NCBI RefSeq assembly: GCF_009746125.1
Contig: NZ_CP041352.1
Location: 1,906,436-1,970,435 of the forward strand
DNA: 64,000 nucleotides
Source: Casimicrobium huifangae
GTDB lineage: Bacteria > Pseudomonadota > Gammaproteobacteria > Burkholderiales > Casimicrobiaceae
Reading direction: 5' to 3'
The notes beneath the pieces are model-generated. The model had not been told where the DNA came from. It was given only the letters and a program-made list of their open reading frames with translations, and did not search any database. The position numbers and the translations under genes are program-made. Of this stretch, positions 1,426 through 59,767 are shown one piece after another. Numbering within the stretch: the stretch's first letter is position 1; every line of letters begins with the position of its first letter.

Positions 1426-1515
1426 GCCATGTCCTAAAAGGGCGTCGGGTGCAATTCGGCAGTTAGTCGACTTTTCGATTAAATTGCCAGTGAGCCCATA
1501 TCAGATGGGCGTTTC
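1426..1515 (+). repeat. Paired-hairpin intergenic element, copy A
   Basis: Two short palindromes form the element. The left one (1426-1443) has GCC and GGGC ends. The right one (1494-1510, GCCCAT-N5-ATGGGC) is followed by GTTTC. The segment between them is AT-rich and carries GTCGACTTTT at 1466-1475. The distance from GTCGA to the right palindrome is 28 bases, as in copies B and C (10651-10743 and 48161-48254); copy D (59676-59767) has 27. It lies between the lactonase gene and prpE, 156 bases before the prpE start. Confidence 0.75.
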
Positions 1516-1543
1516 ATGAAAAAGTTGATCGAACTCTTCACAC

Positions 1544-1561
1544 AGGTCTTATATAAGACCT
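1544..1561. promoter_or_regulatory. Perfect 18-bp palindrome upstream of prpE
   Basis: AGGTCTTATATAAGACCT is its own reverse complement over all 18 bases. It sits 109 bases before the prpE ATG, in an otherwise gene-free stretch. Size and symmetry fit the binding site of a dimeric regulator (GntR or similar). Which regulator binds, and whether it acts on prpE, is inference. Confidence 0.5.
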
Positions 1562-1670
1562 AAGCTTCGTGTAAGGCACCCGGTGGCACAATGCAATCAA
1601 TGTCGCCGGCCGCCGCCCGTACCAACGTGGCGCTGCGGGTGATCTGCCTGATCAAACGTGGAGGAATTGC

Positions 1671-3551
1671 ATGGGTGCCTATCTCGACCACTACAACCGC
1701 TCGATCAAGGAACGCGATGCGTTCTGGGCTGACGAGGCCAGGCTGATCGACTGGAAGACGCCACCCACCGAGATCTGCGATTTCTCGAAGCCCCCGTTCG
1801 CCAAATGGTTCGGCGGCGGTACCACCAACATCTGCCACAACGCGGTTGACCGCCACGTCGAACGCCGTGGCGAGCAGACGGCACTTCACTTCATCTCGAC
1901 CGAGACTGACGTCGAGACCAAGTATTCGTTCAAGCAGCTCTACGCCGAAGTCAACCGTGTCGCGGCCATGCTGCAAAGCCTTGGCGTCGGCAAGGGTGAC
2001 CGTGTACTGATCTACATGCCAATGATCCCGGAGGCGGTGTTCGCGATGCTCGCTACGGTGCGCATCGGAGCCATTCACTCGGTGGTGTTCGGCGGTTTCG
2101 CGTCAGCCTCGCTGGCCACGCGCATTGACGACGCCAAACCGACGGTGATCGTCTCTGCCGACGCCGGCATGCGGATGGGCAAAGTGGTGCCGTACAAGCC
2201 GCTGCTCGACGCGGCCATCGATCTCGCGGAGCACAAGCCGGCCAAGGTGCTGCTGTTCGACCGTGGCCTCGAGCCGATGCAGACCACGCCGGGACGCGAC
2301 ATCGACTGGGCGGGCTTCCGCGCGTCGCACATGATGAAGACGGTGCCGGTGGAATGGGTGGAAAGCTCGCACCCGAGCTACATCCTCTACACCAGCGGCA
2401 CCACCGGCAAGCCGAAGGGCGTGCAGCGCGATACCGGCGGTTACGCGGTGGCGCTGACGTCAAGCATGAAGAAAATCTTCGGCCTCGACCCGGGCGAGAC
2501 AATGTTCTGCACCAGCGATATTGGCTGGGTGGTTGGCCACAGCTACATCGTGTACGGCCCGCTGCTCAACGGCAATACAACGATCATGTACGAGGGCGTG
2601 CCGCTGCGGCCCGATCCCGCCATCTGGTGGAAGATCTGCGCCGAGAACAAGGTCAAGACCATGTTCTCATCACCCACCGCGGTGCGCGTGCTGAAAAAGC
2701 AGGATCCGAAATTCATGCAGCAGCACAAGCTGCCGGCGTTGAAATACCTGTTCCTGGCCGGCGAGCCACTCGACGAGCCGACTGCCCGCTGGGTGAGCGA
2801 CGCACTGGGTGGCGTTGCGATCGTCGACAACTACTGGCAGACCGAATCCGGCTGGCCGATCCTCTCGGCGCAGGTGGGCATTGAGGACACACCGCGCAAG
2901 TTTGGCTCGCCGTCGTTCCCGGTGTACGGCTTCAACGTCAAGTTGAAGAGCGAGACGGGCGGTGCCGTTGGTGCTGACGAGAAGGCAGTGCTGGTGATTG
3001 AGGCGCCGCTGCCGCCGGGGGCGCTGATGACGGTGTGGGGCGATGACGAACGCTTCGTCAAGACCTACTTCGGTACCTTCAGCGACGAGCAGGTCTACAG
3101 CACCTTTGACTGGGCGACACGCGACAAGGATGGTTACTACTTCATCCTCGGTCGTACCGACGACGTGATCAATGTCGCCGGGCACCGTCTGGGCACCCGC
3201 GAGATCGAAGAGGCTGTGCAGGCCAACCCGCTGGTGGCCGAATGCGCCGTGGTGGGCGTCGCCGACCAGCTCAAGGGGCAGATCCCGGTTGCCTTCGTCG
3301 TGCTCAAGGACCCGTCGCAGTCGTCCGACGCCACCAAAACGGCGATCGCTCAGACGGTGGACAAAGAGATCGGTGCCATCGCGCGTCCGGGGGCAGTACA
3401 TCTGGTCACGCTGTTGCCGAAGACGCGCTCCGGCAAGCTGTTGCGGCGTTCTATCCAGGCGCTGGCGGAAGGTCGCGATCCGGGCGACCTGACGACCATC
3501 GAAGACCCGGCAGCGTTGGCGCAGATCAAGGCGGCACTCGGCGTCAAGTAG
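1671..3551 (+). CDS. prpE: Propionyl-CoA synthetase (propionate--CoA ligase)
   Basis: A 626-residue acyl-CoA synthetase of the ANL superfamily, close to the usual PrpE length. It activates propionate to propionyl-CoA through a propionyl-AMP intermediate in the cytoplasm. The N-terminal acetyl-CoA-synthetase-type extension is followed by the A3 core YILYTSGTTGKPKG (residues 237-250), then VQRDTGGYAVALTSSM, which is typical of PrpE. The A8 hinge region (YYFILGRTDDVINVAGHRL) and the C-terminal RSGK motif with the adenylation Lys (about residue 589, the usual target of reversible acetylation) are present. The ATG follows GGAGG at good spacing. No other methylcitrate-cycle gene is in the window, so it is stand-alone here. 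Upstream lie an intergenic repeat and an 18-bp palindrome that may control it. Confidence 0.92.
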   Translation: MGAYLDHYNRSIKERDAFWADEARLIDWKTPPTEICDFSKPPFAKWFGGGTTNICHNAVDRHVERRGEQTALHFISTETDVETKYSFKQLYAEVNRVAAMLQSLGVGKGDRVLIYMPMIPEAVFAMLATVRIGAIHSVVFGGFASASLATRIDDAKPTVIVSADAGMRMGKVVPYKPLLDAAIDLAEHKPAKVLLFDRGLEPMQTTPGRDIDWAGFRASHMMKTVPVEWVESSHPSYILYTSGTTGKPKGVQRDTGGYAVALTSSMKKIFGLDPGETMFCTSDIGWVVGHSYIVYGPLLNGNTTIMYEGVPLRPDPAIWWKICAENKVKTMFSSPTAVRVLKKQDPKFMQQHKLPALKYLFLAGEPLDEPTARWVSDALGGVAIVDNYWQTESGWPILSAQVGIEDTPRKFGSPSFPVYGFNVKLKSETGGAVGADEKAVLVIEAPLPPGALMTVWGDDERFVKTYFGTFSDEQVYSTFDWATRDKDGYYFILGRTDDVINVAGHRLGTREIEEAVQANPLVAECAVVGVADQLKGQIPVAFVVLKDPSQSSDATKTAIAQTVDKEIGAIARPGAVHLVTLLPKTRSGKLLRRSIQALAEGRDPGDLTTIEDPAALAQIKAALGVK

Positions 3552-3617
3552 GCGCATCGGGGCACGTTAGGCGGGGCGAAGAGGGCGCCAGCGGCGCGCT
3601 TTTCGTAAACTTTCGCC

Positions 3618-4463
3618 ATGTCGAACGCTAATCCCGATCTTCTGAAATGGCTCAACGAGTGCCTCGCACGTGGGCACTCGGCAGAGAGTCTGACCAAGTC
3701 CGCACTGTCGAGCGGCTGGCATCCGGATCTTGTCCGCACTGCCATTGCAGAGGCACTCGGTCACCAGCTCGTCGCGCATCGCGCTGGTGCCCCCTCGGTC
3801 AATTCCGTCAGGATTCCCGGGCCTGATCTCACGCAATCGCCAACCTATGTCGATGCCGGCGATCGTCAGGTCGAGGTGTGGACGGTGATGAAGCACCCGC
3901 GCGTGGTCGTGTTTGGCAGTGTGTTGTCAGACGAAGAGTGCGACGGGCTTATCGAACTGGCGCAACCCAAGCTCGCGCGCTCGCTGACCGTTGACAATCA
4001 GACGGGGGGCGACGAGGTGAATAGCGCCCGAACCAGCGATGGCATGTTCTTCAATCGCGGCGAAAACCTGCTTTGCGAACGTATCGAACGCCGTCTGGCA
4101 GCGATGGTGCGCTGGCCCTACGAAAACGGCGAAGGCCTGCAGGTGCTGCGCTATCGGCATGGTGCGCAGTATGTGCCGCACTACGACTACTTCGACCCGG
4201 CGCAGCCGGGGACACCGCGCATCCTGCAACGCGGTGGGCAGCGCGTAGGCACCATCGTGATGTATCTGCGCACACCGGAGCGTGGCGGCGCTACCATCTT
4301 CCCCGATGTCGGCCTCGAAGTGGCGCCAATCAAGGGCTCCGCGGTGTTCTTCAGCTATGACCGCCCGCACCCCGACACCAAAACCCTGCACGGCGGCGCT
4401 CCGGTCACGCTGGGCGAGAAGTACGTCGCAACCAAGTGGATGCGCGAAGGTGAGTTCGTCTAG
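3618..4463 (+). CDS. Prolyl 4-hydroxylase-type 2OG-Fe(II) dioxygenase
   Basis: A 281-residue protein. The C-terminal half is a double-stranded beta-helix dioxygenase with the iron ligands H188 and D190 (HYDYFDP) and distal H258 (TLHGG), plus K268 as likely 2-oxoglutarate anchor. This matches bacterial homologues of the procollagen prolyl 4-hydroxylase alpha subunit. The first 60 residues form a small helical domain common in proteobacterial members. There is no signal peptide. It probably hydroxylates a protein residue, but the substrate is unknown. A weak hairpin with a short T run (3585-3603) lies between prpE and this gene and may end prpE transcription. No clear Shine-Dalgarno is seen, and the ATG at 3618 is the best start available. 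Confidence 0.82.
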   Translation: MSNANPDLLKWLNECLARGHSAESLTKSALSSGWHPDLVRTAIAEALGHQLVAHRAGAPSVNSVRIPGPDLTQSPTYVDAGDRQVEVWTVMKHPRVVVFGSVLSDEECDGLIELAQPKLARSLTVDNQTGGDEVNSARTSDGMFFNRGENLLCERIERRLAAMVRWPYENGEGLQVLRYRHGAQYVPHYDYFDPAQPGTPRILQRGGQRVGTIVMYLRTPERGGATIFPDVGLEVAPIKGSAVFFSYDRPHPDTKTLHGGAPVTLGEKYVATKWMREGEFV

Positions 4464-4509
4464 GCCTCTGTCAGTGGGCAGGGGCAGATGCCGGCTTGCT
4501 GCATCAGTC

Positions 4510-5202
4510 TCAAATCGACACCAACTGCCGCGCCCCATCCGCCTCCATATCCGCCCCACGACCGCGCTTGATGACCTCGCCGCGTTCCATCACCACGTAC
4601 TGGTCCGCCAGTTCGGCGGCGAAATCGTAATACTGCTCGACCAGCACGATGGCCATGGTCTTGCGGTCGGCGAGCAGGCGCAGCACGCGGCCGATGTCCT
4701 TGATCACGCTGGGCTGGATGCCTTCGGTCGGCTCGTCGAGGATCAGCAGCTTCGGGTTGGCGGCCAGTGCTCTGGCGATCGCCAGCTGTTGTTGCTGGCC
4801 GCCCGACAGGTCGCCGCCGCGGCGGTTTAGCATCTGCTTCAGCACCGGGAACAGCTCGTACAGTTCGGCCGGGATCGGCGCGCTGCCTGACTTGTAGGCG
4901 AGGCCCATCTTCAGATTGTCCTCTACCGTCAAGCGACCGAAGATTTCGCGGCCTTGTGGCACGAAGCCGATGCCCTTGCGCACGCGCTCGTACGAGGTCT
5001 CCTTCTGGATCGGCTGGCCGTCCAGCGTGATGCTGCCCGCCTTGATCGGGACCACGCCCATGATGCTCTTGAGCAGCGTCGTCTTGCCTACGCCGTTGCG
5101 CCCTAGCACGACCGTGATCTCACCGACCCTGGCGTCGAGCGAGACGTTGCGCAGGATGTGCGAGCCGCCGTAATACTGGTTGACGTCTTTCAGTTCGAGC
5201 AT
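4510..5202 (-). CDS. urtE: Urea ABC transporter ATP-binding subunit UrtE
   Basis: A 230-residue ABC ATPase of the LivF/UrtE branch. The Walker A GRNGVGKTTLL, signature LSGGQQQQLAIARAL, Walker B LLILDEPTEGIQPSV and the switch-region VEQYYDFA (Gln in place of the usual His) are all present. TEGIQPSVI is typical of UrtE. With UrtD it powers import of urea through the UrtBC channel. It is the last gene of the minus-strand urtABCDE run. A 102-base gap holding a REP palindrome pair separates it from urtD, which may affect mRNA stability or its relative expression. It faces the convergent hydroxylase gene 46 bases away. Confidence 0.93.
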   Translation of the reverse strand: MLELKDVNQYYGGSHILRNVSLDARVGEITVVLGRNGVGKTTLLKSIMGVVPIKAGSITLDGQPIQKETSYERVRKGIGFVPQGREIFGRLTVEDNLKMGLAYKSGSAPIPAELYELFPVLKQMLNRRGGDLSGGQQQQLAIARALAANPKLLILDEPTEGIQPSVIKDIGRVLRLLADRKTMAIVLVEQYYDFAAELADQYVVMERGEVIKRGRGADMEADGARQLVSI

Positions 5203-5214
5203 TGCGAGTACCCC

Positions 5215-5283
5215 TGTAGGAGCGGCTTTGCCGCGACTGGAGTATGGCGAACCGACGCTGGTCGCGGCAGAGCCGCTCCTACA
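5215..5283. repeat. Inverted REP pair (BIME-like) between urtD and urtE
   Basis: TGTAGGAGCGGCTTTGCCGC starts at 5215 and its near-complement ends at 5283 (GCAGAGCCGCTCCTACA), so two REP units face each other about 23 bases apart. Each unit also has its own internal GCGGC/GCCGC stem. The core resembles the widespread pseudomonad REP (GTAGGAGCGGC). No RAYT transposase is in the window. Confidence 0.85.
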
Positions 5284-5304
5284 TTCGTCGGAAATGGATT
5301 GCTG

Positions 5305-6200
<896 letters not shown>

Positions 6201-6204
<4 letters not shown>

Positions 6205-7337
6205 TTCGCGCCTCCCTTCGCGGTCTTCGCGGCTAGCTTGCGGATCAGGCCCACGATGCCTTGCGGCAAGAACAGCGTGACGCCGATGAACATCGCCCCG
6301 AGAAAATACAACCAGTACTCCGGGAACGCGACCGTGAAAAAGCTCTTGGCACCGTTGACGAAGAACGCGCCGACGATCGGGCCGATCAGCGTCGCGCGGC
6401 CACCGACCGCGGTCCAGATCGCGATCTCGATGCTCGCGGCCGGCGACATTTCGCCGGGGTTGATGATGCCGACCTGCGGCACGTACAGCGCGCCCGCAAT
6501 GCCGCACATCACGGCCGAGAAGGTCCAGATCGACAACTTGTACCAGAGCGTGTTGTAGCCGGTGAACAGCACGCGCGACTCGGCGTCGCGGATCGCCTGC
6601 AGCACGCGGCCGTACTTGCTGGCGATGATCCACTTCGACAGCAGGTAAAAGCCGACCAGGGTCAGTCCCGTTAGCACGCACAGGAACACGCGCATGCTGG
6701 GCGTCGCGACCGGCACGCCGAGGATACGCTTGAAATCGGTGAAGCCGTTGTTGCCACCAAAGCCCGTCTCGTTGCGGAAGAACAGCAGCATCGCGGCGAA
6801 CGTGAGGGCCTGCGTGATGATCGAGAAATACACGCCCTTGATGCGCGAACGGAACGCGAAGAAGCCGAACACAAACGCGAGCAGGCCGGGCACCAGGATC
6901 ACCAGCAGCATCTGCACCACGAAGTACTCGCTGCCGGTCCAGTGCCACGGCAGGGTCTTCCAGTCGAGGAACACCATGAAGTCGGGCAAGTCGCTCTTGT
7001 ACACGCCGTCGCGGCCGATCTGGCGCATCAGGTACTGCCCCATGGCATAGCCGCCGAGCGCGAAGAACAGGCCGTGGCCGAGCGACAGGATACCGGTGTA
7101 ACCCCAGATCAGGTCCATCGCCAGCGCGCAGATCGCGTAGCACATGATCTTGCCGAGCAGCGACACCGAATAGTCGGACAGGTGAAACACGTTGCCGGCC
7201 GGCACCACCAGATTGAGCAGTGGCACCAGCACCACGATGGCGGCGATCACCGCGATCAGCGCGATGCGGCCGCGGGTGCCGAGCAGGCTCGCGGGGGCGG
7301 GCGTGGCGGCGTGGTCAGGAGGCGTTGCAGTGGTCAT
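6201..7337 (-). CDS. urtC: Urea ABC transporter permease UrtC
   Basis: A 378-residue inner-membrane permease of the LivM family. After a short soluble N-terminus there are about eight to ten hydrophobic segments, including the conserved DLIWGYTGILSLGHGLFF motif of this family and GRATLIGPIVGAFF, the permease loop that contacts the ATPase. It forms the channel with UrtB. It starts 3 bases after the urtB stop and overlaps urtD by 4 bases, so the genes are translationally coupled. Confidence 0.93.
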
Positions 7338-7340
7338 CGC

Positions 7341-8957
7341 TCAGGCCTCCGCACTGCGGCCCTTGAGGGCGAAGATGCCCTGCGGACGGCGCTGGATGAA
7401 GACGACGATGAACACGAGCACGATGATCTTGGCGAGCACGGCACCGGTCCAGCCTTCGAGGAACTTGTTGAGCACGCCGAGGCCCAGCCCCGCGTACACG
7501 GTGCCCGCGAGCTGGCCGACGCCGCCCAGCACCACCACCATAAACGAGTCGACGATGTAGCCCTGGCCGAGGTCGGGGCCGACGTTGCCCACCTGCGACA
7601 GCGCGCAGCCCGCGAGCCCCGCGATGCCGGCGCCGAGCGCGAAGGCATAGGTGTCGATGCGCGCGGTGTTGACGCCCATGCAGGCCGCCATGCTGCGGTT
7701 CTGGGTGACGCCGCGCACGAACAGCCCGAGCCGCGTCTTGCTGATCAGCAGCCACACGCCGGCGAGCACGAAGAAGGCAAAGAACAGGATCGCGATGCGG
7801 TTGTACGGCAGCGTCAGGTTCGACATCACCTCGATGCCGCCCGACAGCCACGACGGGTTTTCGACGGGCACGTTCTGCGCGCCGAAGATCGTGCGCACCA
7901 GCTGGATCAGCACCAGCGAGATGCCCCAGGTCGCGAGCAAGGTCTCGAGCGGGCGGCCATACAGCCAGCGGATGACGGTGCGTTCGAGCACCGCGCCGAC
8001 CAGCGCCGCCGCCATGAACGACGCCGGGATCGCCGCGATGATGTAGTAGTCGAACGCGCCCGGCAGGTGCTGCCGGAACAGGTTCTGCGTCAGGTAGGTG
8101 GCATAGGCGCCGATCATCAGCAGCTCGCCGTGCGCCATGTTGATGACGCCCATCAGGCCATAGGTGATCGCGAGGCCCAGCGCGACGAGGAACAGGATCG
8201 AGCCGAGGCTCAACCCGGTGAACACGACGCCCAGCCGCTCGCCCCATGCGAGGCGGCTCTCGACGTTCTTGATGGCCGTGGTCAGCGCCGCGCGCACCTC
8301 GGGGTCGGTCTCGCCCCCGGCATTGAGGCGCTCCTGCAGCAGCGAACGCACGCTCGGCTGCGAGCTGCTGGCGAGCGCGTTGACGGCGTCGATGCGTTTC
8401 TGTTTGTCGCCCGACGCGATCAGCATCGCGGCGCGCAGTTGTTCGAGCTTGGCCTTCAGCGGAGGCTCTGTCTCTTTGGCGAGCGCGCGGTCGACCAACG
8501 GCAGCTTGCTCTCGTCGGCCGAATCCTTGAGCTCGGCGATGGCGTTGTTGCGCACGCGTACGCTGTCCGAGAACAGCCCGAGCGCGGCCTTGGCGGCCTC
8601 GAGTTCGCGGCGCATGCGGTTGTTGTTGACGACGTCCTCGACGCCTTCGGGCAGCGCGGTTTCGGCGCCGGTCGCGGCGTCGGTCGCCTTGCCGTCGGCG
8701 ACGATCAGCACCTTGTCGCCGGCGATCTTGGTGGAGTCATCGAGCAGCGCATCGATCAGTTTCGACAGTGCGTCATCGGGGGCCGCGACGGCGGCGGACA
8801 GCGCATTGATGCGGTCATCGTTGTCGCCGGCGGCGATGGCCTTGGCGGCCGCGGGCGTCAGCGCGTGAGTGGCCGGCACGCACAGGCTCGCGAGCCAGGC
8901 GGTGGCGATGGCGGCGGTGCGGCAGCGGGTGAGCAGTCTGCTGGACAGGCGGAGCAA
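7341..8957 (-). CDS. urtB: Urea ABC transporter permease UrtB
   Basis: A 538-residue protein. A signal-like hydrophobic N-terminus and about 220 residues of alpha-helical, charged sequence precede the LivH-type permease domain. That extension is normal for proteobacterial UrtB. The permease part carries GLAITYGLMGVINMAHGE and several membrane spans and ends in RRPQGIFALKGRS. It forms the urea channel with UrtC. It lies 135 bases downstream of urtA, and that gap contains an intrinsic terminator (9011-9052), so it should be made in smaller amounts than the binding protein. Confidence 0.92.
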   Translation of the reverse strand: MLRLSSRLLTRCRTAAIATAWLASLCVPATHALTPAAAKAIAAGDNDDRINALSAAVAAPDDALSKLIDALLDDSTKIAGDKVLIVADGKATDAATGAETALPEGVEDVVNNNRMRRELEAAKAALGLFSDSVRVRNNAIAELKDSADESKLPLVDRALAKETEPPLKAKLEQLRAAMLIASGDKQKRIDAVNALASSSQPSVRSLLQERLNAGGETDPEVRAALTTAIKNVESRLAWGERLGVVFTGLSLGSILFLVALGLAITYGLMGVINMAHGELLMIGAYATYLTQNLFRQHLPGAFDYYIIAAIPASFMAAALVGAVLERTVIRWLYGRPLETLLATWGISLVLIQLVRTIFGAQNVPVENPSWLSGGIEVMSNLTLPYNRIAILFFAFFVLAGVWLLISKTRLGLFVRGVTQNRSMAACMGVNTARIDTYAFALGAGIAGLAGCALSQVGNVGPDLGQGYIVDSFMVVVLGGVGQLAGTVYAGLGLGVLNKFLEGWTGAVLAKIIVLVFIVVFIQRRPQGIFALKGRSAEA

Positions 8958-9010
8958 GGCGGGCTTCCTTCTTCAGCGGGTGGCGAACGGGCAAACGCCC
9001 GGGTTGCGGT

Positions 9011-9052
9011 CAAAAAAATGCCGGGGTCACTGTTGCAGCAGCAACGCCCGGC
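9011..9052 (-). terminator. Intrinsic terminator/attenuator between urtA and urtB
   Basis: On the minus strand a two-part stem (outer GCCGGG/CCCGGC, inner GTTGC-TGCT-GCAAC) is followed by CATTTTTTTG. It lies after the urtA stop and before urtB. Partial termination here would give excess periplasmic UrtA over membrane subunits, as is common in binding-protein operons (inference). Confidence 0.75.
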
Positions 9053-9092
9053 TCACGGAGGATTCGTCTAAGCCTGTGTCAGATTCAGCGGA

Positions 9093-10379: not shown

Positions 10380-10446
10380 GTCGTTATCTCCCAATGGTCT
10401 TGAGGTTGGTTGTGGGGTGCCCACTGAGTGGGTTGAACACTGCATC

Positions 10447-10461: not shown

Positions 10462-10650
10462 AGCGGCAACCAGTCCGCTGGATGTGTGACAACCCCTTGT
10501 GCACGATGCAAATGAGTGCGGCGGCACCGTTTGCGACGGTCGCATGAACGACTTGCACGGAAAAGGAGCGTTAGCGTCTTTGCGGTGCGCAATTCGCTGC
10601 ACTTCTCGACGCGCGACGCAGCGATTCAGCTGGCCATCATCTTTTGACGT

Positions 10651-10743
10651 GAAAGCCCGTTGCCATTGGGCCAAGAGCTGAAAAGCACTCAATATCGACT
10701 TGTTGAGGAATTTGTTGTTCAGCCCATATTGAACGGGCTTCTC
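10651..10743 (+). repeat. Paired-hairpin intergenic element, copy B
   Basis: Left palindrome GCCC-N9-GGGC at 10655-10671, right palindrome GCCCATATTGAACGGGC at 10722-10738. The start-to-start distance is 67 bases, with TCGACTT (10695-10701) between them. It lies in the divergent gap between urtA and the DMT transporter, upstream of the sigma-54 promoter on one side and 158 bases before the transporter start on the other. The rest of the 10462-10900 gap holds no gene that I can support. Confidence 0.75.
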
Positions 10744-10900
10744 GTGCTTGAGCTGTATCGGTGTTCACGTCTCGCTGAACGCAGCAGCGGAGTGCACGGC
10801 GGTAACGACCGCCTCGCTTTCGGTGCGTCCGGCGCTATCCTGGTGCCAAAGCTAAGGTGATGTCGGTGGTTTGCCGCCGCCAACCCGGCACAATGTCCGA

Positions 10901-11818: not shown

Positions 11819-11825
11819 GCGGCGG

Positions 11826-33359: not shown

Positions 33360-33378
33360 AAAAGCCTTTACGGCTTTT
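33360..33378 (+). terminator. Terminator candidate after the MarR gene
   Basis: AAAAGCC-TTTAC-GGCTTTT forms a 7-bp stem immediately after the marR-type stop codon. The T run is only four long and lies in the stem, so strength is uncertain; it would also act on the opposite strand toward 33440. Confidence 0.5.
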
Positions 33379-33383
33379 GGCTG

Positions 33384-33414
33384 AAATGCCCGTCGCCATT
33401 GGGCTTGGAGTTGC
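33384..33414 (+). repeat. Half copy of the paired-hairpin element
   Basis: GAAATGCCCGTCGCCATTGG and the following GC (to 33404), then TTGGAGTTG, closely match the left half of copy B (10651-10680: GAAAGCCCGTTGCCATTGGG, then CCAAGAGCTG). The right palindrome expected 67 bases downstream is absent, and the PIN-like gene ends at 33440, so the copy looks truncated. Confidence 0.6.
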
Positions 33415-48081: not shown

Positions 48082-48160
48082 TTGGCGCGAACGGGTGCCG
48101 GACGTGGCCTCGATGCAACCAATCGAAATCGAGGCATTTTCTGAAATACGACTTTTAGCG

Positions 48161-48254
48161 GAAAAGCTCATTTATATTGGGCAAAAGCCGCAATATTGAC
48201 AAAAGTCGACTTTATTGCAAATCACTTAGTTAGCCCATATGCAATGGGCGTTGC
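48161..48254 (+). repeat. Paired-hairpin intergenic element, copy C
   Basis: Left palindrome GCTCATTTATATTGGGC (48166-48182), right palindrome GCCCATATGCAATGGGC (48233-48249), start-to-start distance 67 bases, with GTCGACTTT (48205-48213) between. The right palindrome ends 19 bases before the fabD ATG and directly before its Shine-Dalgarno, so it could influence fabD translation. The gap also carries CACTTAGTTAG, similar to part of the 30448 and 50392 motifs. Confidence 0.75.
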
Positions 48255-48268
48255 AGGGGAAAGCCACT

Positions 48269-51433: not shown

Positions 51434-51451
51434 CGCGATGCCACTGCTGGT

Positions 51452-52866: not shown

Positions 52867-52903
52867 GGCGCGGCTTCTTCAATTGCTCGACGACCTTGCC
52901 GCG

Positions 52904-53329
52904 CTAGCGTTTGGTGGTCCCCACCTTGTTGCCCTGCATGTCACGATGGGTCGTCGTGTTGCCGTTGACGGTGGACTTGCCCACCTGCTTGCCGGATGCG
53001 TCGTAGTGCTTGATGGTGCTGCCTGATTGCACCGACTTGCCGGTGCTCTTGCCGCTGGCGTTGACGTGTCGCGTGGTGTTGCCACTGGTCGTCGACTTGC
53101 CCAGCGAGCGGCCGGTAGTCGAGGTGTGGCGGGTGGTGTTGCCGCTGGTGGTGGACTTTGATACCTGCTTGCCGGAGCTGCTGTAGCTGCGGCTGGAACT
53201 GCTTGAGCTGCTCGACGAGCTGCGTGACGAGCTCTTGCTGGCGGCCTGCGCGACATCCGCCAGAGCGAGCGACAGGACGGAGGCGGCAACAGCGGCGAGA
53301 TGCAGTCCGGTGCGACGATGGAAAGTCAT
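52904..53329 (-). CDS. Secreted protein with four 20-residue repeats and a poly-Ser linker
   Basis: A 141-residue protein: signal peptide to about residue 30, a Ser/Arg run (KSSSRSSSSSSSSSSRSYSS), then four tandem 20-residue units with consensus GKST-SGNTT-H-DASGK-V, each with a Gly-Asn turn and a basic-His end, then GTTKR. The periodicity suggests a small repeat beta structure such as a beta-roll or flower-like solenoid. GGAG precedes the ATG at 53329. Function unknown; neighbours are also small exported proteins. Confidence 0.75.
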   Translation of the reverse strand: MTFHRRTGLHLAAVAASVLSLALADVAQAASKSSSRSSSSSSSSSSRSYSSSGKQVSKSTTSGNTTRHTSTTGRSLGKSTTSGNTTRHVNASGKSTGKSVQSGSTIKHYDASGKQVGKSTVNGNTTTHRDMQGNKVGTTKR

Positions 53330-53398
53330 GGCTAACTCCATGGGTTGAAAGGTGGGTGAGTGGCTTTCGTGCGCGCCGATTGCCGCAGTTCTGCAGTC

Positions 53399-53851
53399 CT
53401 ATTGCACCGGTTTGTGCTGGCGCCGGCCGGTGGCCTGGCCCGACGCAGGATCGCGCGGCGATGTGATCTTGCGCTCGTGCGTCGCAGTGTCGCCAGGGCT
53501 GGTCGCAGTGCTTGTGGCGCCTTTCTTGGGGGCAGCATCTGCCCTGGCAAATGAACCGGTCTGCGTGGCGCCGAACGAGTATGACTGGGTGGTCTTCGGG
53601 CCGGTCGTCCGCGCGTTTTGTGGCGCAGCAGCCGCCGAACCGACGCCGGTGGCCGTGCTACGCGGGTTGGTGACCACCGCGCCACCGGGACCACCCTTGA
53701 AGCGCGAGTGCGGCGACGCGCAGTAGAACGTGCCGTTGTTGTAGCGGCATACATCGGGGCTGACGCAGGCTGGACTGCAGTCGGCGAAGGTGGGCGATGA
53801 AAACGTGGCGAGCGCGAGACCGGTCAGGGCGAGGACTGGCGATAGCTTCAT
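53399..53851 (-). CDS. Small exported Cys-containing hypothetical protein
   Basis: A 150-residue protein. A signal peptide (LSPVLALTGLALATFSSPTFA) is followed by a compact Cys motif CSPACVSPDVCRYNNGTFYC (four Cys, likely two disulfides), then a long low-complexity tail rich in Thr, Ala, Ser and Lys. ATG at 53851 follows GGAG; a longer frame upstream lacks a signal. It is the first gene of the minus-strand run 53851-50534 and is not recognised. Confidence 0.65.
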   Translation of the reverse strand: MKLSPVLALTGLALATFSSPTFADCSPACVSPDVCRYNNGTFYCASPHSRFKGGPGGAVVTNPRSTATGVGSAAAAPQNARTTGPKTTQSYSFGATQTGSFARADAAPKKGATSTATSPGDTATHERKITSPRDPASGQATGRRQHKPVQ

Positions 53852-54223
53852 GGTGTTCTCCGTGTAGTTGCGTGATCGGCGGTCGGCGCGGGACCCTGAT
53901 GGATTCGTCGGGTTCATCGCGCCTCATTCGGGTTTACGCAGCACCATTGTCGGGTCGGACATCACTCACCCGTTATCGCATGGGCATGCGACACAGGCGC
54001 TCTGACAGCACGATATGATCGGCCATCAGCTTCGGCGGGAAATGGCGTTCGATTGGGGCTTGAACAGCACTTCATCCTTATGTCGACTTTTGAAGAAACT
54101 GATCGGCACGCCCGGTTTATTGGCAGCTTGGTACCAAAGCTGATGTCCGCAACGGCACAGTGGAAGGGCGCCTGCCAGGTGGGCCGAGCCCACGGTCCGA
54201 ATGTGGTCGCCATCGTGTTGGTG
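53852..54223. other. Intergenic stretch without a supported gene
   Basis: This 372-base gap lies between the LysM-hydrolase gene stop and the Cys-motif gene start. I see no ORF with a credible start, no RNA gene and no strong terminator. It presumably holds the promoter of the minus-strand run that starts at 53851, but no clear -35/-10 pair stands out. Confidence 0.5.
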
Positions 54224-55180
54224 CTACGGAATTACCAGACGCTGACCGGGTTTGATCAGGTTGGGATCAGGCCCGATGACGGCGAGGTTGGCCTTGTGAA
54301 TCACCGGATACTTCATGGCGTCGCCGTAGTACTTGAGCGCGATCTTCGACAACCAGTCGCCGGCAACCACGACATGAATGCGCGGCTTGCCCGTCGGCGG
54401 CAAATGCGCCGGCGTGCCAGGTTGCGCGGGCACCTGAAAACCCGGCTGGCTGTTCCCCTCGCGCGCCAGCCGGTCCTTGCAGAGCTTGTAGGCGAACGCC
54501 AGATGTCCCGACGACCAGCTCCACACTTGCTGCGATCCGGCGGCGTCACGCGCTGGTGTGACGTGCGAGCTCTTGATTTCCCCCGGCTCCCAGATCAGGC
54601 CGGTCGGGTTCGGCAGCTCGGTACCCGGCAGCACGGCTTTGGGCCATGGTACGCCGCCGATACCACTGTGCGTGGCAAAGAACTTCTGGTGCAGGAACGT
54701 GGTGCTCGCCTGATGCCGGAAGCCGCAGTTGCCAAACGACAGGCGCGAGCAGGTGAGCAGCACATCGCGCTGCGGGTAGATGACGCGCTTGACGGTGGGT
54801 GCAATGGGCGTGTTCCAGACGTCGCCGCCCAGCGTGTTGGTGCGGTCAACGGCGTCGTAAAGCACCATGCACTCAACCGGAATCTGTTCCTCCGCCAGCC
54901 AGCTTGCCACCTCAATGACGGCAGCGCCGCCGCGACTGTGGCCGCCCAGAAATATGGCCTTCACCTTGCCGCTTTTCCAGTAGTCGCGTACCCAGGTGTG
55001 GCAGGCACGCGCCCGCTTGTCGGTGTCGAATCCGCTCAAATACGGGCCACGCAGATACCAGGTGTCGTCGAACGGCAGCAGTTCATTGCGATGCAGGCGG
55101 TTGACGAAACTGTTGTAGTAAGTCCGTTCGTAGGTATCGGTTTCGGTGGACGTGCCGTCGATGCCTGCGTAGATGATCAC
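54224..55180 (-). CDS. Alpha/beta-hydrolase-like protein with C-terminal LysM domain
   Basis: A 318-residue protein. IIYAGIDGTSTETDTY and a nucleophile elbow GGHSRGGAA (Ser82) with ECMVLYDAVDRT after it indicate a serine hydrolase fold, loosely like DUF2235/Tle1-type lipases. The last 50 residues (IHVVVAGDWLSKIALKYYG, then HKANLAVIGPDPNLIKPGQR) are a LysM domain. No signal peptide is seen, so export, if any, would need a dedicated system; a type VI effector role is only a guess. GTG at 55180 follows GGAGAC; the frame upstream of it is non-coding and runs into the divergent kinase gene. A 241-base promoter gap separates it from that kinase. Confidence 0.72.
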   Translation of the reverse strand: MIIYAGIDGTSTETDTYERTYYNSFVNRLHRNELLPFDDTWYLRGPYLSGFDTDKRARACHTWVRDYWKSGKVKAIFLGGHSRGGAAVIEVASWLAEEQIPVECMVLYDAVDRTNTLGGDVWNTPIAPTVKRVIYPQRDVLLTCSRLSFGNCGFRHQASTTFLHQKFFATHSGIGGVPWPKAVLPGTELPNPTGLIWEPGEIKSSHVTPARDAAGSQQVWSWSSGHLAFAYKLCKDRLAREGNSQPGFQVPAQPGTPAHLPPTGKPRIHVVVAGDWLSKIALKYYGDAMKYPVIHKANLAVIGPDPNLIKPGQRLVIP

Positions 55181-55421
55181 TGCTGTCTCCGGTTGCGGCC
55201 GGCGCAAGCCGCGCCTGTCCGGTTTCACGCGCTGGGTGGAGAAACTCGGACAGCGGAAACAATTTGTCACACAGGCAGTGGTTGCCATGCTGGCGCATTT
55301 GGATGCGTCGCGCCGTCTCTGAAAGGGCACGGCTACACTTTCGGCAGCCGCAACCACCGCGCCGCAACAGCTGCCATCTGATTGGCCGCTGGCGCCGCGA
55401 CCGCAACAACCGGGGGAGCAG

Positions 55422-58400
55422 TTGGAACTCACACTGCAGGCGATGAAGACGCTGTCCGAGCTGATGGACAGGGCGCTCGAGCTCGACGACGAGGCTCGTA
55501 CGCGCTGGCTTGCCGAGCTGGCGACCGGGCCGCACGCCACGTTGCACCCGCTGGTGCGCGAGATGTTGGCAAAACAGGCGGACATGTCCACCACGTTTCT
55601 GCTGAGCCCCGCCAGCGGTGGCGATTCGGTGATTGCGGGCGAACCGGCAAGCGCTGCGCTCGTGGCGGGCGCGCATGTCGGCCCCTATGTGCTGGACCGA
55701 CCCATCGGTCAGGGGGGAATGGGCGCTGTCTGGCTCGCGCATCGGGACGATGGCACCCTGAAACGGCAGGTGGCGCTGAAGCTGCCGCTGGGCCATCGCA
55801 GTGGCGCGCTGGCGGAACGCTTCGCCCGCGAGCGCGACATCCTGGCGTCGCTGACTCACCCGAACATTGCGCGGCTTTACGACGCCGGTTTCAGTGCTGA
55901 TGGGCAGCCGTTTCTCGCACTGGAATACATCGTTGGTCAGCCGATTACCGAGTATTGCGATGCGCAGCGGCTTGACGTGCGCGACCGTCTGCAGTGCTTT
56001 CTGCAGGTGGCGGATGCCGTGCAATATGCGCACGGCAATCTGGTCATTCATCGCGATCTGAAGCCGGCCAATATTCTGGTCAGCGACGACCGTCGCGTCC
56101 ATCTGCTCGATTTCGGCATCGCCAAGTTGCTCGATGACCCGGTGGCGCACGCGGCCGACTCGGAGCTCACGGTGGTGACGGGACGCGCCCTGACGCTCGA
56201 TTACGCGAGTCCGGAACAAATCCAGGGCACGGCGGTTGGCACCGCGAGCGATGTTTATTCGATGGCAGTGGTGCTGTACCAGTTGCTGACCGGGCAGAAG
56301 CCATACACGTTGAAGCGGGGCACCCGCGCTGAACTTGAGGAGGCGATAGTCGGTTCCGATCCACCGCGCATGAGCGAGGCGGTGCGGCGACGTAACGGTG
56401 GCGAGCGGCTGGCGCGGGCGCTCGCCGGCGATCTCGACACCATCGTTGCCCACGCGATGCGCAAGGATCCGCAGCAGCGCTACACCACGGCGTCCGCTTT
56501 TGCCGATGATGTTCGCCGCTATCTGGATGGACGTCCGGTGCTGGCGCGACCCGATTCCTGGGGCTACCGGGCAGGCAAGTTCATCGCGCGCAACCGGCTG
56601 CCGGTGGGGGCCGGTGCGGCGGTGCTGACGGCGCTGGTGGGCGGCTTTGCGGCCGCCATGTGGCAGGCCGATGTGGCGCGCAACGAAGCAGGACGTGCCG
56701 ATCGCGAGGCGGTGGCTGCGCGGGAAGCAAAATCCCGTGCCGACGCCGAAGCAGCGCGCGCCCGCGCCGAAAGCCAGCGTGCTGATGTTGAAGCGCAGGC
56801 GGCGCGTGCCGAGGCTGCTCGCGCTGATACCGAGGCCGCTGCCGCGTTGCAGGCGGCCCGGCGGGCGAGCGAAGCGGCGAACGCTGCCAATCAGTCGGCG
56901 GTGCGGGCTGATCGTGAGGCGATCACCGCGACGCGCGAGACGCAGCGGGCGACGTCGGTGCATGGCTTCATGGTGGATCTGTTTGCTGCCAACAGCAACG
57001 ACCAGAAGAATGCTGTCGAAGTCCGCAAGCTGACCGCCAAGCAGTTGCTCGACCGCGGCACGGCCCGCCTGGAGGCAGCCGGGACCGGCGACAGCAGCGT
57101 CGATGACTCGCTTTACGCGCTGTTTGGCAAACTTTACGAGAACCTGGCCGACTACGAAACGTCGAAGCGGCTGCGTGAGAAAACCATTGAGCGCGTCGCG
57201 CAGCGCCACGGCAGGCAATCCGTTGAGTACGCCAACGCGATTCTCGATCTCGCCTGGGTTGAGGCACACGATATTGCCGGCAAGCGCATGGACCTGGTGC
57301 GCGAGGCCAAAGCCATCCTGCAAAAGCACGCCGCTGAATCACCTGCCTTGGCCCGCGCCTGGGTCATAGAGGCGCGCACGATTGATCGCGCGCGACCGCA
57401 GGAGAAGCTTGCTGCGGCGAAGGAGGCCCTGCGCATCCTGCAACAGCACCCGACGCAGCTGCGGCTCAAGGCTGACGCCGAAACTGCCCTGGCGCTGGCG
57501 GAGCGCGAGCTGGGCAATTACGAGGCAGGGCTCGCGGCCTTGCAACGCTCGGCGGCGGCATACGCGCAGCTTTACGGCGAAGACAGTCTCGAATACGCCC
57601 AGGCGCTCGGCGGCATTGGCATGACGCAGCGCGGCTTGCTGCGCCTGACCGACTCCGAGCGTTCGCTGGCGAAAGCGGTCGAGTTGCTGCGGCCGTATCA
57701 CCGCTATCCGGTCGAGGCGACCGTGTTTGGAAGAGGCTTGCAACTGGCACGGGCCGGGCGCGGGGACTTCGACAGCGCAGCTCGCACTCTGGAGTCGGCG
57801 CACAGCGCGGTGACGGGTAGCGAACCGTCTGCCGCCAATATGCGATCCAGCATCAGCGGCGCGCTGGCCACCATCGCCTCGGCTCGCGGCGACACCCGTC
57901 GCGCGCTGCAGCTGTCACAGCGCGCACTGGCGGAGCGCGACGGCCGTCAGACCAACCTGATCGCGGCCGACGCTGTCAGCCTGGCCAGCACCGCTGTTGC
58001 CGCCCGCGAGTTCGATATCGCCGATGCTGCGCTGGCGACGGCGTACCGGATACGCGACGAAAAGGGCCTGCCATCGCACACGGCGATGTCGCTCACGCGA
58101 GTCGCCACCGAGCTCGCCGCGCGACGAACGGCCGCTGCGCGCACCGCTGGCGATACCGTCCCCGCTGAAGGCCAGGCACCGATGAGCACTGATCCCAGCG
58201 CTGCCAACGAGCCGCGCGGCGATGACGGTATGACACCGCAGTCGCGGTTGACCGGTGACATCCGGCGGGCACGGGCTGCGGCATCCCGTCGCGATTGGGA
58301 GTCGGTGCGTCAGTTGTCGACGAACTGGCTGCGGCCTGATTCCGGCTTTGAGCTTCCAGTCCACTACCGGGCTGATCTGCTGCTGCTGCTGGGCGAGGCA

Positions 58401-58538
58401 GAGCTGCGCCTTGGTCGTGACAGCGCACCAACGACGCTGCGGACTGCCGTGGACATCATGGAGAAGCACTATGCCAGCGGCAGCCGTTCGCTGGCCTGGG
58501 GCCGACAGTTGCTGGCCGGCAAGATGGTGGAACAATGA
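55422..58538 (+). CDS. Membrane-bound Ser/Thr protein kinase with coiled coil and TPR-like repeats
   Basis: A 1038-residue Hanks-type kinase. The N-terminal 80 residues are helical; the kinase domain (about 89-370) has the glycine loop IGQGGMGAVW, K120, E137, HRDLKPANILV with D212 and the DFG motif 230-232. A transmembrane helix follows at about 393-414. Residues about 415-510 form a long Ala/Arg/Glu-rich coiled coil (repeated ADREA/ARAEAARADTEA). The rest is a TPR-like sensor domain. TTG at 55422 has GGGGGAG upstream; ATG at 55443 is possible. An ECF sigma factor gene follows 43 bases later, a frequent kinase-sigma pairing that may let the kinase regulate the sigma factor (inference). Confidence 0.88.
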   Translation: MELTLQAMKTLSELMDRALELDDEARTRWLAELATGPHATLHPLVREMLAKQADMSTTFLLSPASGGDSVIAGEPASAALVAGAHVGPYVLDRPIGQGGMGAVWLAHRDDGTLKRQVALKLPLGHRSGALAERFARERDILASLTHPNIARLYDAGFSADGQPFLALEYIVGQPITEYCDAQRLDVRDRLQCFLQVADAVQYAHGNLVIHRDLKPANILVSDDRRVHLLDFGIAKLLDDPVAHAADSELTVVTGRALTLDYASPEQIQGTAVGTASDVYSMAVVLYQLLTGQKPYTLKRGTRAELEEAIVGSDPPRMSEAVRRRNGGERLARALAGDLDTIVAHAMRKDPQQRYTTASAFADDVRRYLDGRPVLARPDSWGYRAGKFIARNRLPVGAGAAVLTALVGGFAAAMWQADVARNEAGRADREAVAAREAKSRADAEAARARAESQRADVEAQAARAEAARADTEAAAALQAARRASEAANAANQSAVRADREAITATRETQRATSVHGFMVDLFAANSNDQKNAVEVRKLTAKQLLDRGTARLEAAGTGDSSVDDSLYALFGKLYENLADYETSKRLREKTIERVAQRHGRQSVEYANAILDLAWVEAHDIAGKRMDLVREAKAILQKHAAESPALARAWVIEARTIDRARPQEKLAAAKEALRILQQHPTQLRLKADAETALALAERELGNYEAGLAALQRSAAAYAQLYGEDSLEYAQALGGIGMTQRGLLRLTDSERSLAKAVELLRPYHRYPVEATVFGRGLQLARAGRGDFDSAARTLESAHSAVTGSEPSAANMRSSISGALATIASARGDTRRALQLSQRALAERDGRQTNLIAADAVSLASTAVAAREFDIADAALATAYRIRDEKGLPSHTAMSLTRVATELAARRTAAARTAGDTVPAEGQAPMSTDPSAANEPRGDDGMTPQSRLTGDIRRARAAASRRDWESVRQLSTNWLRPDSGFELPVHYRADLLLLLGEAELRLGRDSAPTTLRTAVDIMEKHYASGSRSLAWGRQLLAGKMVEQ

Positions 58539-58581
58539 AGGTGAGCCAGCTACCAGTCGCCGGTGCGCAGGGATGTCTGAC

Positions 58582-59145
58582 ATGAGTGAGATTACCGAGC
58601 TGCTGTCGCGCGCGCGCGCCGGCGAATCACAGGCCGCGCATGAAGCCTATGCCAGCCTCTATCCGGAGCTGCGCCGCATTGCGCACAGCCGCCTGCGGCA
58701 GGGTGGCAACCGCATTTCTCTCGACACCACCGCGCTGGTACATGACAGTTATCTGCGTTTCGTCAATGCCAAATCGCTGGATGTCAGCGGCCGCAATCAC
58801 TTCCTGGCCTATGCGTCGAAAGTGATGCGGTCGGTGATTGTCGATCTGATCCGCGAGGCCAACGCCGAGCGCCGCGGCGGCGGGCAGTTTGACGTCACGC
58901 TCAATACGGCGATTGCCGAGGCCTCGCCCGACAGCCGAACCAAAGGCGACGAGGCGCTGTTTGTGCACGATGCCCTGACCAAGCTGGAGCAAGTGGATCA
59001 ACGTCTGGCGACCGTGGTCGAAATGCGCTACTTCGCCGGGCTGACGGATAGCGAGATCGCCGAATGCCTCGGCGTCACCGTGCGTACCGTCGGCCGCGAC
59101 TGGGAGAAGGCGCGCCTTTTTCTGTATGCGATGCTGAAGGATTGA
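58582..59145 (+). CDS. ECF-type sigma factor (family often paired with Ser/Thr kinases)
   Basis: A 187-residue sigma-70-family factor. Region 2 includes ARAGESQAAHEAYASLYPEL and LVHDSYLRFVNAKSL, with NHFLAYASKVMRSVIVDLIR for core binding and promoter opening; region 4 ends RLATVVEMRYFAGLTDSEIA, then ECLGVTVRTVGRDWEKARLF, the -35-binding helix-turn-helix. The ALVHDSYLR and RNHFLAYASKVMR motifs mark the subgroup encoded beside Hanks-type kinases. ATG at 58582 has AGGGA eight bases upstream. No anti-sigma factor gene is next to it, so the upstream kinase may control it. Confidence 0.88.
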   Translation: MSEITELLSRARAGESQAAHEAYASLYPELRRIAHSRLRQGGNRISLDTTALVHDSYLRFVNAKSLDVSGRNHFLAYASKVMRSVIVDLIREANAERRGGGQFDVTLNTAIAEASPDSRTKGDEALFVHDALTKLEQVDQRLATVVEMRYFAGLTDSEIAECLGVTVRTVGRDWEKARLFLYAMLKD

Positions 59146-59266
59146 TCGCCGTCGCCGCTGACGATGCACGGTGCCTCCGCACGTGGCAGGGGCGCACTGC
59201 CATGTCCGACCCAACGTGATGCTGCCGTTAAACCGGCAAGAGGAGCAATCTGCATTTGTTTGAGCT

Positions 59267-59578
59267 ATGGCGGTCAAGATGACATCGTCCGGCGTTTGTG
59301 CGCCGTCTGCGCCGGCGTTGCCGCCGGCGTTGGATGCCGCGCAGTGGCGGCTGGCATTGCAGTGGCTCGACCGTATCGACGCGACCGGCCAGGTGGCTGA
59401 GCGTGGTGTCCTGCTGCAAGGTTTGCAATTGACGCAACCGGCCACCGCGAGCGCGGTGCAGCACCTGCTTGAACTGCGCGACCGCATGGTCGCAGCGGAA
59501 TTTCTCGTCACCGCGTGGCCGCTGTTGGTAGTGGCGTCCGGCCAAAGCGGCGGCGACCAATCACCGGGCAAGCGCTAA
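59267..59578 (+). CDS. Hypothetical small protein, likely truncated kinase N-terminus
   Basis: A 103-residue ORF, not a known family. WLDRIDATGQVAERGVLLQG, then LQLTQPATASAVQHLLELRD and RMVAAEFL align with the region before the kinase domain of the gene at 55422 (LMDRALELDDEARTRWLAEL ... VREMLAKQADMSTTFL): same spacing of Leu, Arg, Pro and Phe-Leu. After this it ends without a kinase domain. It may be the remnant of a second kinase, lost by deletion before the repeat at 59676. Start ATG at 59267 lacks a strong Shine-Dalgarno. Confidence 0.45.
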   Translation: MAVKMTSSGVCAPSAPALPPALDAAQWRLALQWLDRIDATGQVAERGVLLQGLQLTQPATASAVQHLLELRDRMVAAEFLVTAWPLLVVASGQSGGDQSPGKR

Positions 59579-59675
59579 AGCGTCTGTTCATTATCGCGCA
59601 GGGGATCCGTCGCAGATCGCGGACGATTCACCCCGTGAGCGCAGAACGGCTGCCAACAGCAGGCATCTTTCGTAA

Positions 59676-59767
59676 AAAAGCCTTATCCAATAAGGGCTGG
59701 ACAGTCGAAAATTAAAAAGTCGAGAATCAGCAAAAATCCCATACAGCCCTTATTGAATAGGCGTTTC
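59676..59767 (+). repeat. Paired-hairpin intergenic element, copy D
   Basis: Left palindrome GCCTTATCCAATAAGGGC (59680-59697), right palindrome GCCCTTATTGAATAGGC (59746-59762) followed by GTTTC as in copy A. Start-to-start distance 66 bases; GTCGA (59719) precedes the right palindrome by 27. It lies between the truncated kinase-like ORF and fabG. The rest of the 59579-59900 gap holds only a weak promoter candidate. Confidence 0.75.

Follow-up and report, generated by a model that had tools for sequence, protein, structure and literature searches.

What is the paired palindromic element that recurs between genes in a 64-kb window of the Casimicrobium huifangae genome, and what keeps it there? 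The window is the whole stretch of DNA analysed, 64,000 nucleotides of contig NZ_CP041352.1 (positions 1,906,436 to 1,970,435 of the forward strand). An initial annotation, made from the letters alone, had noticed the element before prpE, in the urtA/DMT gap, before fabD and before fabG, and had proposed a functional or mobile unit, possibly a miniature inverted-repeat transposable element (MITE), a family like the repetitive extragenic palindromes (REPs), or a structured RNA leader. We found that the element is a dyad-symmetric unit at the level of the DNA, that its blocks are kept and its places are held between near relatives, that its palindromes form dialects, and that its copies avoid close neighbours. 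We tentatively read it, at slightly less than an even chance, as a DNA site recognised by a putative protein and held in place by selection, perhaps for the organisation of the chromosome. Within the open-access literature searched, no paper describes the element in its title or the opening of its abstract.

The element is a DNA unit of about 120 bp (118-122 bp) centred on TCGA, in which an outer CAGCTTTT, GAAA, a palindrome and the central AAGTCGACTT stand at fixed spacing. Each half of about 60 bp reads, from the outside inward, AWCAGCTTTT, four mostly free bases, GAAA, the palindrome GCCCATT..ATGGGCT, about 20 mostly free bases that include an AAA or TTT tract, and then AAGTC. Alignment with further copies showed that the two palindromes first noticed are the inner portions of these two inverted halves; the location given for the unit was right, but its true limits lie about 16 bp further to the left and about 12 bp further to the right. 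The common orientation reported for the copies means little for a dyad-symmetric unit, and in many strong copies both strands match the model.

We aligned 105 copies, keeping the matches above 50 bits from 107 found and leaving out two weaker ones. The length was 122 bp in 70 copies, 121 bp in 27 and 120 bp in 8, and each of the four block-to-block distances varied by at most 1 base; the fixed spacing first proposed was thus borne out, and free variation was not seen. The GGGC/GCCC, TCGA and CTTT/AAAG columns were 91-100% conserved, parts of the outer palindrome arms excepted: at the paired bases of the palindrome, the inner arm GGGC was kept in 98-100% and the outer arm in 44-75%. The halves are inverted repeats at the consensus level with sharp ends, as are the terminal inverted repeats of a MITE. 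Another 36 columns were nearly free, and the mean identity among copies was 55%. The information content was about 102 bits, a value inflated by the picking of copies by similarity; for the same reason, namely their choice by likeness to the first model, conservation is overstated and an apparent left/right asymmetry was created.

The window contains five full copies and one half copy. The four full copies and the half copy of the initial annotation were present at or near the places given there, and one full copy (54027-54142) had been missed. They are listed below with their match scores; "palindrome-blind" marks scores from a scan blind to the palindromes, and HMM stands for hidden Markov model.

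1410..1527, no strand assigned: full copy 1, upstream of prpE, with palindromes GCCatgtcctaaaaGGGC and GCCCATatcagATGGGC and centre GTCGAC; 78.0 bits; palindrome-blind score 40.2.
10638..10755, no strand assigned: full copy 2, in the divergent urtA/DMT gap, with a weak right end; 64.2 bits; missed by the palindrome-blind scan.
33371..33409, no strand assigned: half copy, consisting of the outer end and one palindrome; 17.4 bits; probably a remnant of a full element.
48149..48266, no strand assigned: full copy 3, in the fabH/fabD gap, ending two bases before the fabD start; 82.9 bits; palindrome-blind score 37.8.
54027..54142, no strand assigned: full copy 4, with one degenerate palindrome; palindrome-blind score 30.5; HMM 32 bits.
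59664..59779, no strand assigned: full copy 5, before fabG; 64.6 bits; palindrome-blind score 35.5.

These copies belong to a large family. The right-arm pattern, allowing up to three mismatches, gave 93 matches in the host genome (G000) and none when the pattern was reversed, a few of the 93 being two arms or two strands of one copy; the earlier view of a genome-wide family that is not due to chance therefore holds, and further copies are plentiful. In a search of the host genome with a sequence-only model, the best 150 of 1043 candidates had E values from 8e-23 to 9e-12, were nearly all full length, and fell at somewhat more than 100 places. An unselected contiguous stretch of 560 kb of G000 held 40 full and 4 partial copies, against one match in the reversed sequence, and scaling from this stretch gives about 350 copies per genome. 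This stretch, together with stretches of G011, G012, G015 and G006, was scanned without selection by similarity, with weights derived from the 105 copies and then iterated.

The family was then found in nearly the whole genus, represented by the host and 16 other genomes (G001-G016); most of the genomes compared are draft metagenome-assembled genomes (MAGs). Run with stricter filters, the sequence-only model detected the element in 15 of these 16, in none of 19 genomes of other genera in the family and in none of 24 genomes of other families in the order. A palindrome-blind pattern (CTTT, AGTCGACT and AAAG at fixed spacing) occurred at 85 places in G000, 138 in G011, 81 in G012 and 6-71 in eight further genomes of the genus, and its reverse always at none; it was present in 11 of the 17 genus genomes and in none of the 47 examined from the family's other genera. 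One of the six genus genomes without an exact match to this pattern, G006, gave 30 copies in 229 kb with the iterated model (none in the reversed sequence), with a weaker centre and weaker ends. G016 had no element by the sequence-only model or the palindrome-blind pattern. A scan of public genomes added eight loci in three MAGs assigned to Burkholderiales or Betaproteobacteria, namely JAPUER01 (from a lab-scale reactor), JANXNO01 and JANXUB01. In the small genomes of the genus, G016 and G008 (2.5-2.6 Mb), we observed no Y1_Tnp matches, and no elements in the former and few in the latter; genome reduction alone may account for this scarcity.

The places of the element are held between near relatives. 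G011 is one of the nearest relatives of G000, and its contig C16 (1-99874) is colinear, apart from several interruptions, with G000 1871441-1955623 over 84 kb, a stretch that takes in the first 49 kb of the window. All nine G000 sites with homologous flanks were occupied in G011, eight in the colinear stretch and one in a moved block. Among these nine, one G011 copy is partial, and one G000 copy is the half copy of the window, whose counterpart in G011 is full and lies 30 bp after the same gene. The element at G011:66267 has no counterpart in G000. Before fabD, a clear element was found in all eight relatives with a clear element gap (G011, G012, G001, G015, G013, G003, G007 and G005). The fabH/fabD gap itself is occupied in G011, G012, G001, G015, G013 and G003, the G007 copy lies before fabD, and G005 shows the centre and right half only, at a contig edge. 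The distance from the end of this element to the fabD start codon is two bases in every case but G012, where it is about 41 bases. Among the iterated matches, G006 shows a distinct form of the element before fabD; G002, G008, G009, G010 and G014 have degenerate elements there (judged by eye only), and the 28-bp fabD gap of G016 has none. For the urtA/DMT copy, G011 has a counterpart in that gap, G015 one between DMT and urtA, and G005 one before DMT; in G004, and in G013 at its DMT locus, the scan found none. As for the fabG copy, G012 has a copy of its own dialect beside the same neighbour gene.

Several side observations concern the same pair of genomes. Gaps that hold an element were more often interrupted by insertions or rearrangements than the others (5 of 9 vs 4 of 57, Fisher p 0.0014), in a count made post hoc and by eye. 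At G011:C16 600-16766, about 16 kb lies between two elements where G000 has one element (1871906); the right half of the right element of the pair is near-identical to the G000 copy and its left half is unrelated, as if the rearrangement had crossed the element. Beside the element found in G011 only, at G011:C16 about 65480-66200, are two short reverse-strand frames that look, by eye alone, like a PIN toxin and an AbrB-type antitoxin.

What has been held at these places is the blocks. We compared seven orthologous pairs from G000 and G011, leaving out the partial site (1876006) and the half site (1939806). Conserved columns agreed in 241 of 336 comparisons (0.717), vs 0.709 for non-orthologous copies, and variable columns in 73 of 264 (0.277), vs 0.302, so that in these two classes orthologs resemble each other no more than random copies do. 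Between near relatives, the free bases are largely scrambled and the blocks are kept at fixed addresses. For comparison, 4-fold sites in the same region agree at 63% (2877 sites; 45-82% by gene; 40% at saturation), which gives a rough neutral yardstick for this pair, and of 18 gaps free of the element, 15 gave alignments clearly better than shuffled sequence, in a test for which only 20 gaps passed the filters. As dead insertions would lose blocks and spacers alike, selection, or something equivalent to it, appears to act on the blocks in place. Recent copying is disfavoured, because look-alike pairs would be expected and none was present among the 105 copies. Hypermutation is not advanced as a firm claim: the 4-fold identity of the fastest genes is near saturation (0.45 and 0.50), and several non-coding flanks look random as well.

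The outer and central blocks are common to most of the genus, and the inner palindrome differs by genome. The inner half-sites of G011 have GGGC in 22 of 34 halves and GGTC in none (11 halves were reported with neither), and those of G012 have GGGC in 4 of 68 and GGTC in 24 of 68 (35 with neither). The outer arm CGAC occurs in 3 of 34 halves in G011 vs 37 of 68 in G012. Different palindrome types occupy the same fabD gap, with the G012 type in G003 and G007 and a GGGGC type in G001 and G015. The likeliest cause of these dialects is a binding protein whose specificity has changed and to which the sites have adapted.

The element is also distributed along the chromosome in a characteristic way. 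The 40 full copies of the 560-kb stretch, which could overlap the end of a predicted gene by as much as 45 bases, lie in 40 different gene gaps, 21 of 341 tandem, 10 of 58 divergent and 9 of 57 convergent (genes were called by a simple codon-usage script). Among gaps of at least 100 bp, copies are present in 20 of 126 tandem, 10 of 48 divergent and 9 of 21 convergent gaps. Divergent and convergent gaps are enriched together over tandem ones (19 of 115 vs 21 of 341, p 0.0018), partly because tandem gaps are short. The tandem gaps in use are long, with a median of 186 bp besides the element vs 47 bp for unused ones, as at transcription-unit boundaries. In the selected set, 101 of the 105 copies are intergenic by a cruder gene call. 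A position 5' of a gene, which the initial annotation had given for each copy, is not general, since 9 of the 40 copies lie between convergent genes, and the link it saw to fatty-acid metabolism may have no reason other than the fab cluster in the window.

Close neighbours are avoided: G000 has one interval below 3 kb where about nine are expected. The spacing of 44 copies in G000 has a coefficient of variation (CV) of 0.63 (P 0.0008 when compared with random gene gaps, 0.0006 when the gaps are limited to those of at least 100 bp, and 0.003-0.004 against a uniform distribution, with slightly different copy sets). The CV is 0.51 for 19 copies in G011 (P 0.0003), 0.45 for 26 copies in 300 kb of G012 (P 6e-5), and 0.59 for 25 copies in G006 (P 0.003). 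Spacing is thus more regular than chance in four of the five genomes tested, in statistics that rest on 159-560 kb per genome. The mean spacing is about 7 kb in G006, 8 kb in G011, 11 kb in G012, 13 kb in G000 and 15 kb in G015.

Dependence between alignment columns bears on whether the element acts as DNA or as RNA. Complementarity beyond column composition was absent in the 105 copies, both in the 61 dyad column pairs (largest z 2.4) and in the seven local hairpin pairs (largest z 1.3); the compensatory changes in both stems, which had been suggested as a check, were accordingly not found. RNAalifold on 27 copies gave eight pairs with a covariation term of only -0.24. A search of the whole window with Rfam at the gathering level returned two tRNAs and no match to the element, and around copies 1 and 3 a search that allowed E values as high as 5 returned nothing but one chance match of 11.8 bits. 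The dependence that does exist is short-range. Twenty-five column pairs exceeded every shuffled pair; 21 of them are adjacent, 24 lie within three bases, and none links the two halves. They include CA or TG at columns 11-12 and 127-128, AA or TT at 56-57 and AAA or TTT at 82-84, the kind of dependence that DNA shape and flexible steps would produce.

Together, conserved blocks at fixed spacing, with free bases between them, were found at orthologous places, as in a DNA-binding site. In the reading that we favour, a protein assembly with two-fold symmetry would bind the element. It would contact directly the outer CAGCTTTT, GAAA, the inner palindrome and the central AAGTCGACTT, with one dimer on each palindrome, and the specificity of this dimer would differ between species. 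Recognition of the AA(A)/TT(T) tracts and CA/TG steps would go through DNA shape, as when DNA is bent or wrapped in a complex. More tentatively, the assembly may organise the chromosome, as a boundary or anchor of supercoiled or looped domains or as a site where a topoisomerase is loaded, with domains of about 10 kb; regulation of single genes is a less likely role. We consider chromosome organisation the most likely role because the copies lie in long gaps of all orientations and are evenly spaced, 7-15 kb apart depending on the genome.

Known chromosomal sites resemble the element in part. The sites of parS, matS, SlmA and Noc are palindromic, dispersed and read by a sequence-specific DNA-binding protein, but they are short sites of one protein, unlike this composite of about 120 bp. 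The motif of E. coli DNA gyrase is 130 bp long and symmetric about a 4-base staggered cleavage site, with indirect readout in its flanks, and is degenerate with a 10.75-bp periodic GC content (PMC6379681). The present element is comparable in length, symmetry and 4-base centre, but its blocks are near-invariant, its palindrome is species-specific and a 10.75-bp period is not clear in it. Such blocks, and the dialects, are not what gyrase alone would lead one to expect.

A number of observations weigh against a site held by selection for chromosome organisation. At the 36 intermediate columns, orthologs are more alike than other copies (132 of 252, or 0.524, vs 0.417), and in two of the seven pairs (a and f) a stretch next to a conserved flank has stayed clearly similar, so that common descent is partly visible in the orthologous copies. 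The two element-holding gaps that passed the filters also align above shuffled sequence (z 15.2 and 12.7). Many non-coding flanks of the element are also near random between G000 and G011, which makes a turnover faster than neutral insecure. An information content of about 102 bits exceeds the need of one binding protein and suggests an origin by copying. Wrapping should leave an AT periodicity, and the signal seen in five genomes is weak (P 0.008-0.058), with its best periods at 8-10 bp. ParB_N, as a candidate binding protein, has a single member in G000, is also present in G016, and shows no link to the element. Regularity of spacing is not significant in G015 (P 0.11 and 0.22) or in a shorter stretch of G012 (P 0.21), G000 and G011 share part of their sites so that the spacing tests are not all independent, and the spacing of the copies could likewise stem from target immunity if the element was once mobile. 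Turnover is greater at sites other than the one before fabD, a copy upstream of prpE having been found in only 4 of the 13 relatives read (G011, G001, G015 and G013), and farther relatives share fewer sites. Two related ideas were dropped along the way, a clean helical periodicity, for the weak signal with its best periods of 8-10 bp, and a second ParB as the binder, as G000 has one ParB_N protein only.

A more specific and rather doubtful extension, to which we give about half the weight of the general reading, is a genus-wide lattice of several hundred composite sites at transcription-unit boundaries, with a single site for each domain of 7-15 kb, used by a putative symmetric machine. The palindrome specificity of this machine would have shifted between species, with the sites changing along in place, and spacers would turn over at least as fast as synonymous sites, perhaps faster; the sites might then be hypermutable, for example by being broken and repaired, as well as selected. 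If this is true, the lattice would amount to a bacterial version of boundary elements or of recombination-hotspot motifs. Bacterial chromosome domains are roughly 10 kb in size, and if the general reading holds, what sets them would become directly testable, because their sites could be counted, aligned and compared across species, with their places held, their spacing even and their recognition changing in concert. It would also show that a large repeat family can appear mobile and yet be kept in place.

The strongest alternative, which we regard as unlikely but well ahead of the others, is that the copies are non-autonomous mobile elements of the ERIC, MITE or REPIN kind, in which the blocks are what a transposase needs, the palindrome tracks that transposase, and target immunity produces the even spacing. 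Inverted halves of about 60 bp, hundreds of intergenic copies confined to one genus with species-specific variants, and a very high information content all agree with it. So do the gains or losses that exist (G011:66267 and the prpE site) and the two small genomes that lack Y1_Tnp genes and have few copies or none. Its difficulty lies in the history of the copies. The variable columns of the 105 copies (of about 350) are no more alike than shuffled ones (identity 0.304 in both; highest value 0.58 among 5460 pairs vs a shuffled maximum of 0.67), and no shared window of 30, 45 or 60 bp goes beyond the shuffled maxima. There are thus no recent duplicates, whole or in part, among them, and gene conversion or recent copying within this set was rejected on the same grounds. 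No convincing target-site duplication was found at lengths of 2-9 bases with offsets of 0-15 on each side (256 combinations); the best z was 3.6 for 2 bases, falling to 1.9 at 9 bases, and old insertions could conceivably have lost theirs. Furthermore, all nine testable sites are shared with G011 at 63% agreement of 4-fold sites, and held blocks among scrambled free bases are not expected of dead insertions. Of the two parts of the earlier proposal, the functional unit is supported and the active MITE is not.

RAYT genes, the transposases that accompany REPs, offer a direct check. PF01797 (Y1_Tnp, RAYT) has matches in 15 of the 17 genus genomes, and 19 of 20 RAYT loci fetched, with up to 1.5 kb on each side, had no element when scanned with the G000 weights; the exception is locus L214, with an element about 1.2 kb away. 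A REPIN of the resident RAYTs is rejected on the strength of these flanks. The likeness to REPs noted at first therefore extends to the habit of the element and not to a RAYT link, and the statement that it is distinct from the REP cores also present was right, as the two RAYT loci of G000 that were read carry their own GTAG-type REPs. These loci, at 4154873 (L224) and 3570710 (L137), are flanked by repeats GTAGCCCGGA...TCCGGG and GTAGGCTGGGTT...AACCCAGC, which resemble GTAG-tagged REPs and are unrelated to the element. No autonomous transposon partner with the same ends was noticed by eye among the 93 right-arm matches, and no systematic search for one was made. A virus carrier was also considered and set aside: one 24-base pattern had 0 exact matches in viral contigs, which says little for other dialects.

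The element is filed under none of REPIN, ERIC or the DNA uptake sequences (DUS) discussed below. Enterobacterial 127-bp intergenic repeat units are known as ERIC (enterobacterial repetitive intergenic consensus). Compared by description, those units are similar in size, occupy many intergenic places and are limited to a clade (PMC2759123). Set beside ERIC, the present copies average 55% identity, include no look-alike pairs and show a spacing more regular than chance. REPINs and BIMEs share with the element paired inverted palindrome ends, a less conserved spacer of set length, an extragenic location and hundreds of copies per genome (PMC3116915). REPINs are described as having 16-mers that do not vary, a long hairpin with compensatory changes along it, and RAYTs nearby (PMC3116915). 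In the element, the blocks are patchy and the centre is conserved in addition, and there are no compensatory changes, no recent duplicates and no link to RAYTs.

Two further explanations are improbable, and about equally so. One is molecular drive of the uptake type, in which a site preferred in DNA uptake or transfer between relatives accumulates, spreads evenly and forms dialects, like DUS or uptake signal sequences (USS). DUS motifs are 10-12 bases long. The spacing of our copies, more even than chance, would agree with such a drive, and so would their species dialects: in Neisseriaceae, DUS form dialects between related species and are often paired and inverted between genes (PMC3630211). 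There are thousands of DUS per genome (PMC3630211), far more than the roughly 350 copies of a dyad-symmetric element of about 120 bp with five blocks. The other explanation is the operator of a very large regulon, with a transcription factor on the palindromes controlling the neighbouring genes. Copies before prpE, fabD and fabG speak for it, as does the fabD copy kept in all eight relatives with a clear element gap (the prpE copy being kept in 4 of 13); the enrichment in divergent and convergent gaps, partly an effect of gap length, adds to this. However, the 9 of 40 copies between convergent genes serve no promoter, even spacing is unexpected, and the size and five-block layout are unusual for an operator.

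A structured RNA, whether leader, terminator or processing signal, is largely refuted and very improbable, for although the palindromes could fold, and in a few copies the central palindrome is long and perfect, with T runs after two of these, there is no covariation in the hairpins or along the dyad (a weak term in RNAalifold apart), no column dependence between the halves and no Rfam match at the gathering level; the RNA leader proposed at first, and a riboswitch, are rejected for the absent covariation together with the copies in convergent gaps. The long perfect palindromes around the centre are those at G000 1057926, G000 249081 and G004:C41 12605, and the T runs, which follow in G000 1057926 and G004:C41, are like those of bidirectional terminators.

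Two other features of the window are separate from the element. A different short repeat at 5214-5283 (query 4915-4984) is matched at about 80% identity by dozens of places among those listed, spread over many genomes of the genus. A perfect palindrome, GTCTTATATAAGAC, probably a regulator site, lies at 1546-1559, between copy 1 and prpE. It was not seen before prpE in five other relatives read; it is present upstream of prpE in G011, G012, G003, G013, G015 and G010, and with one change in G001 and G004.

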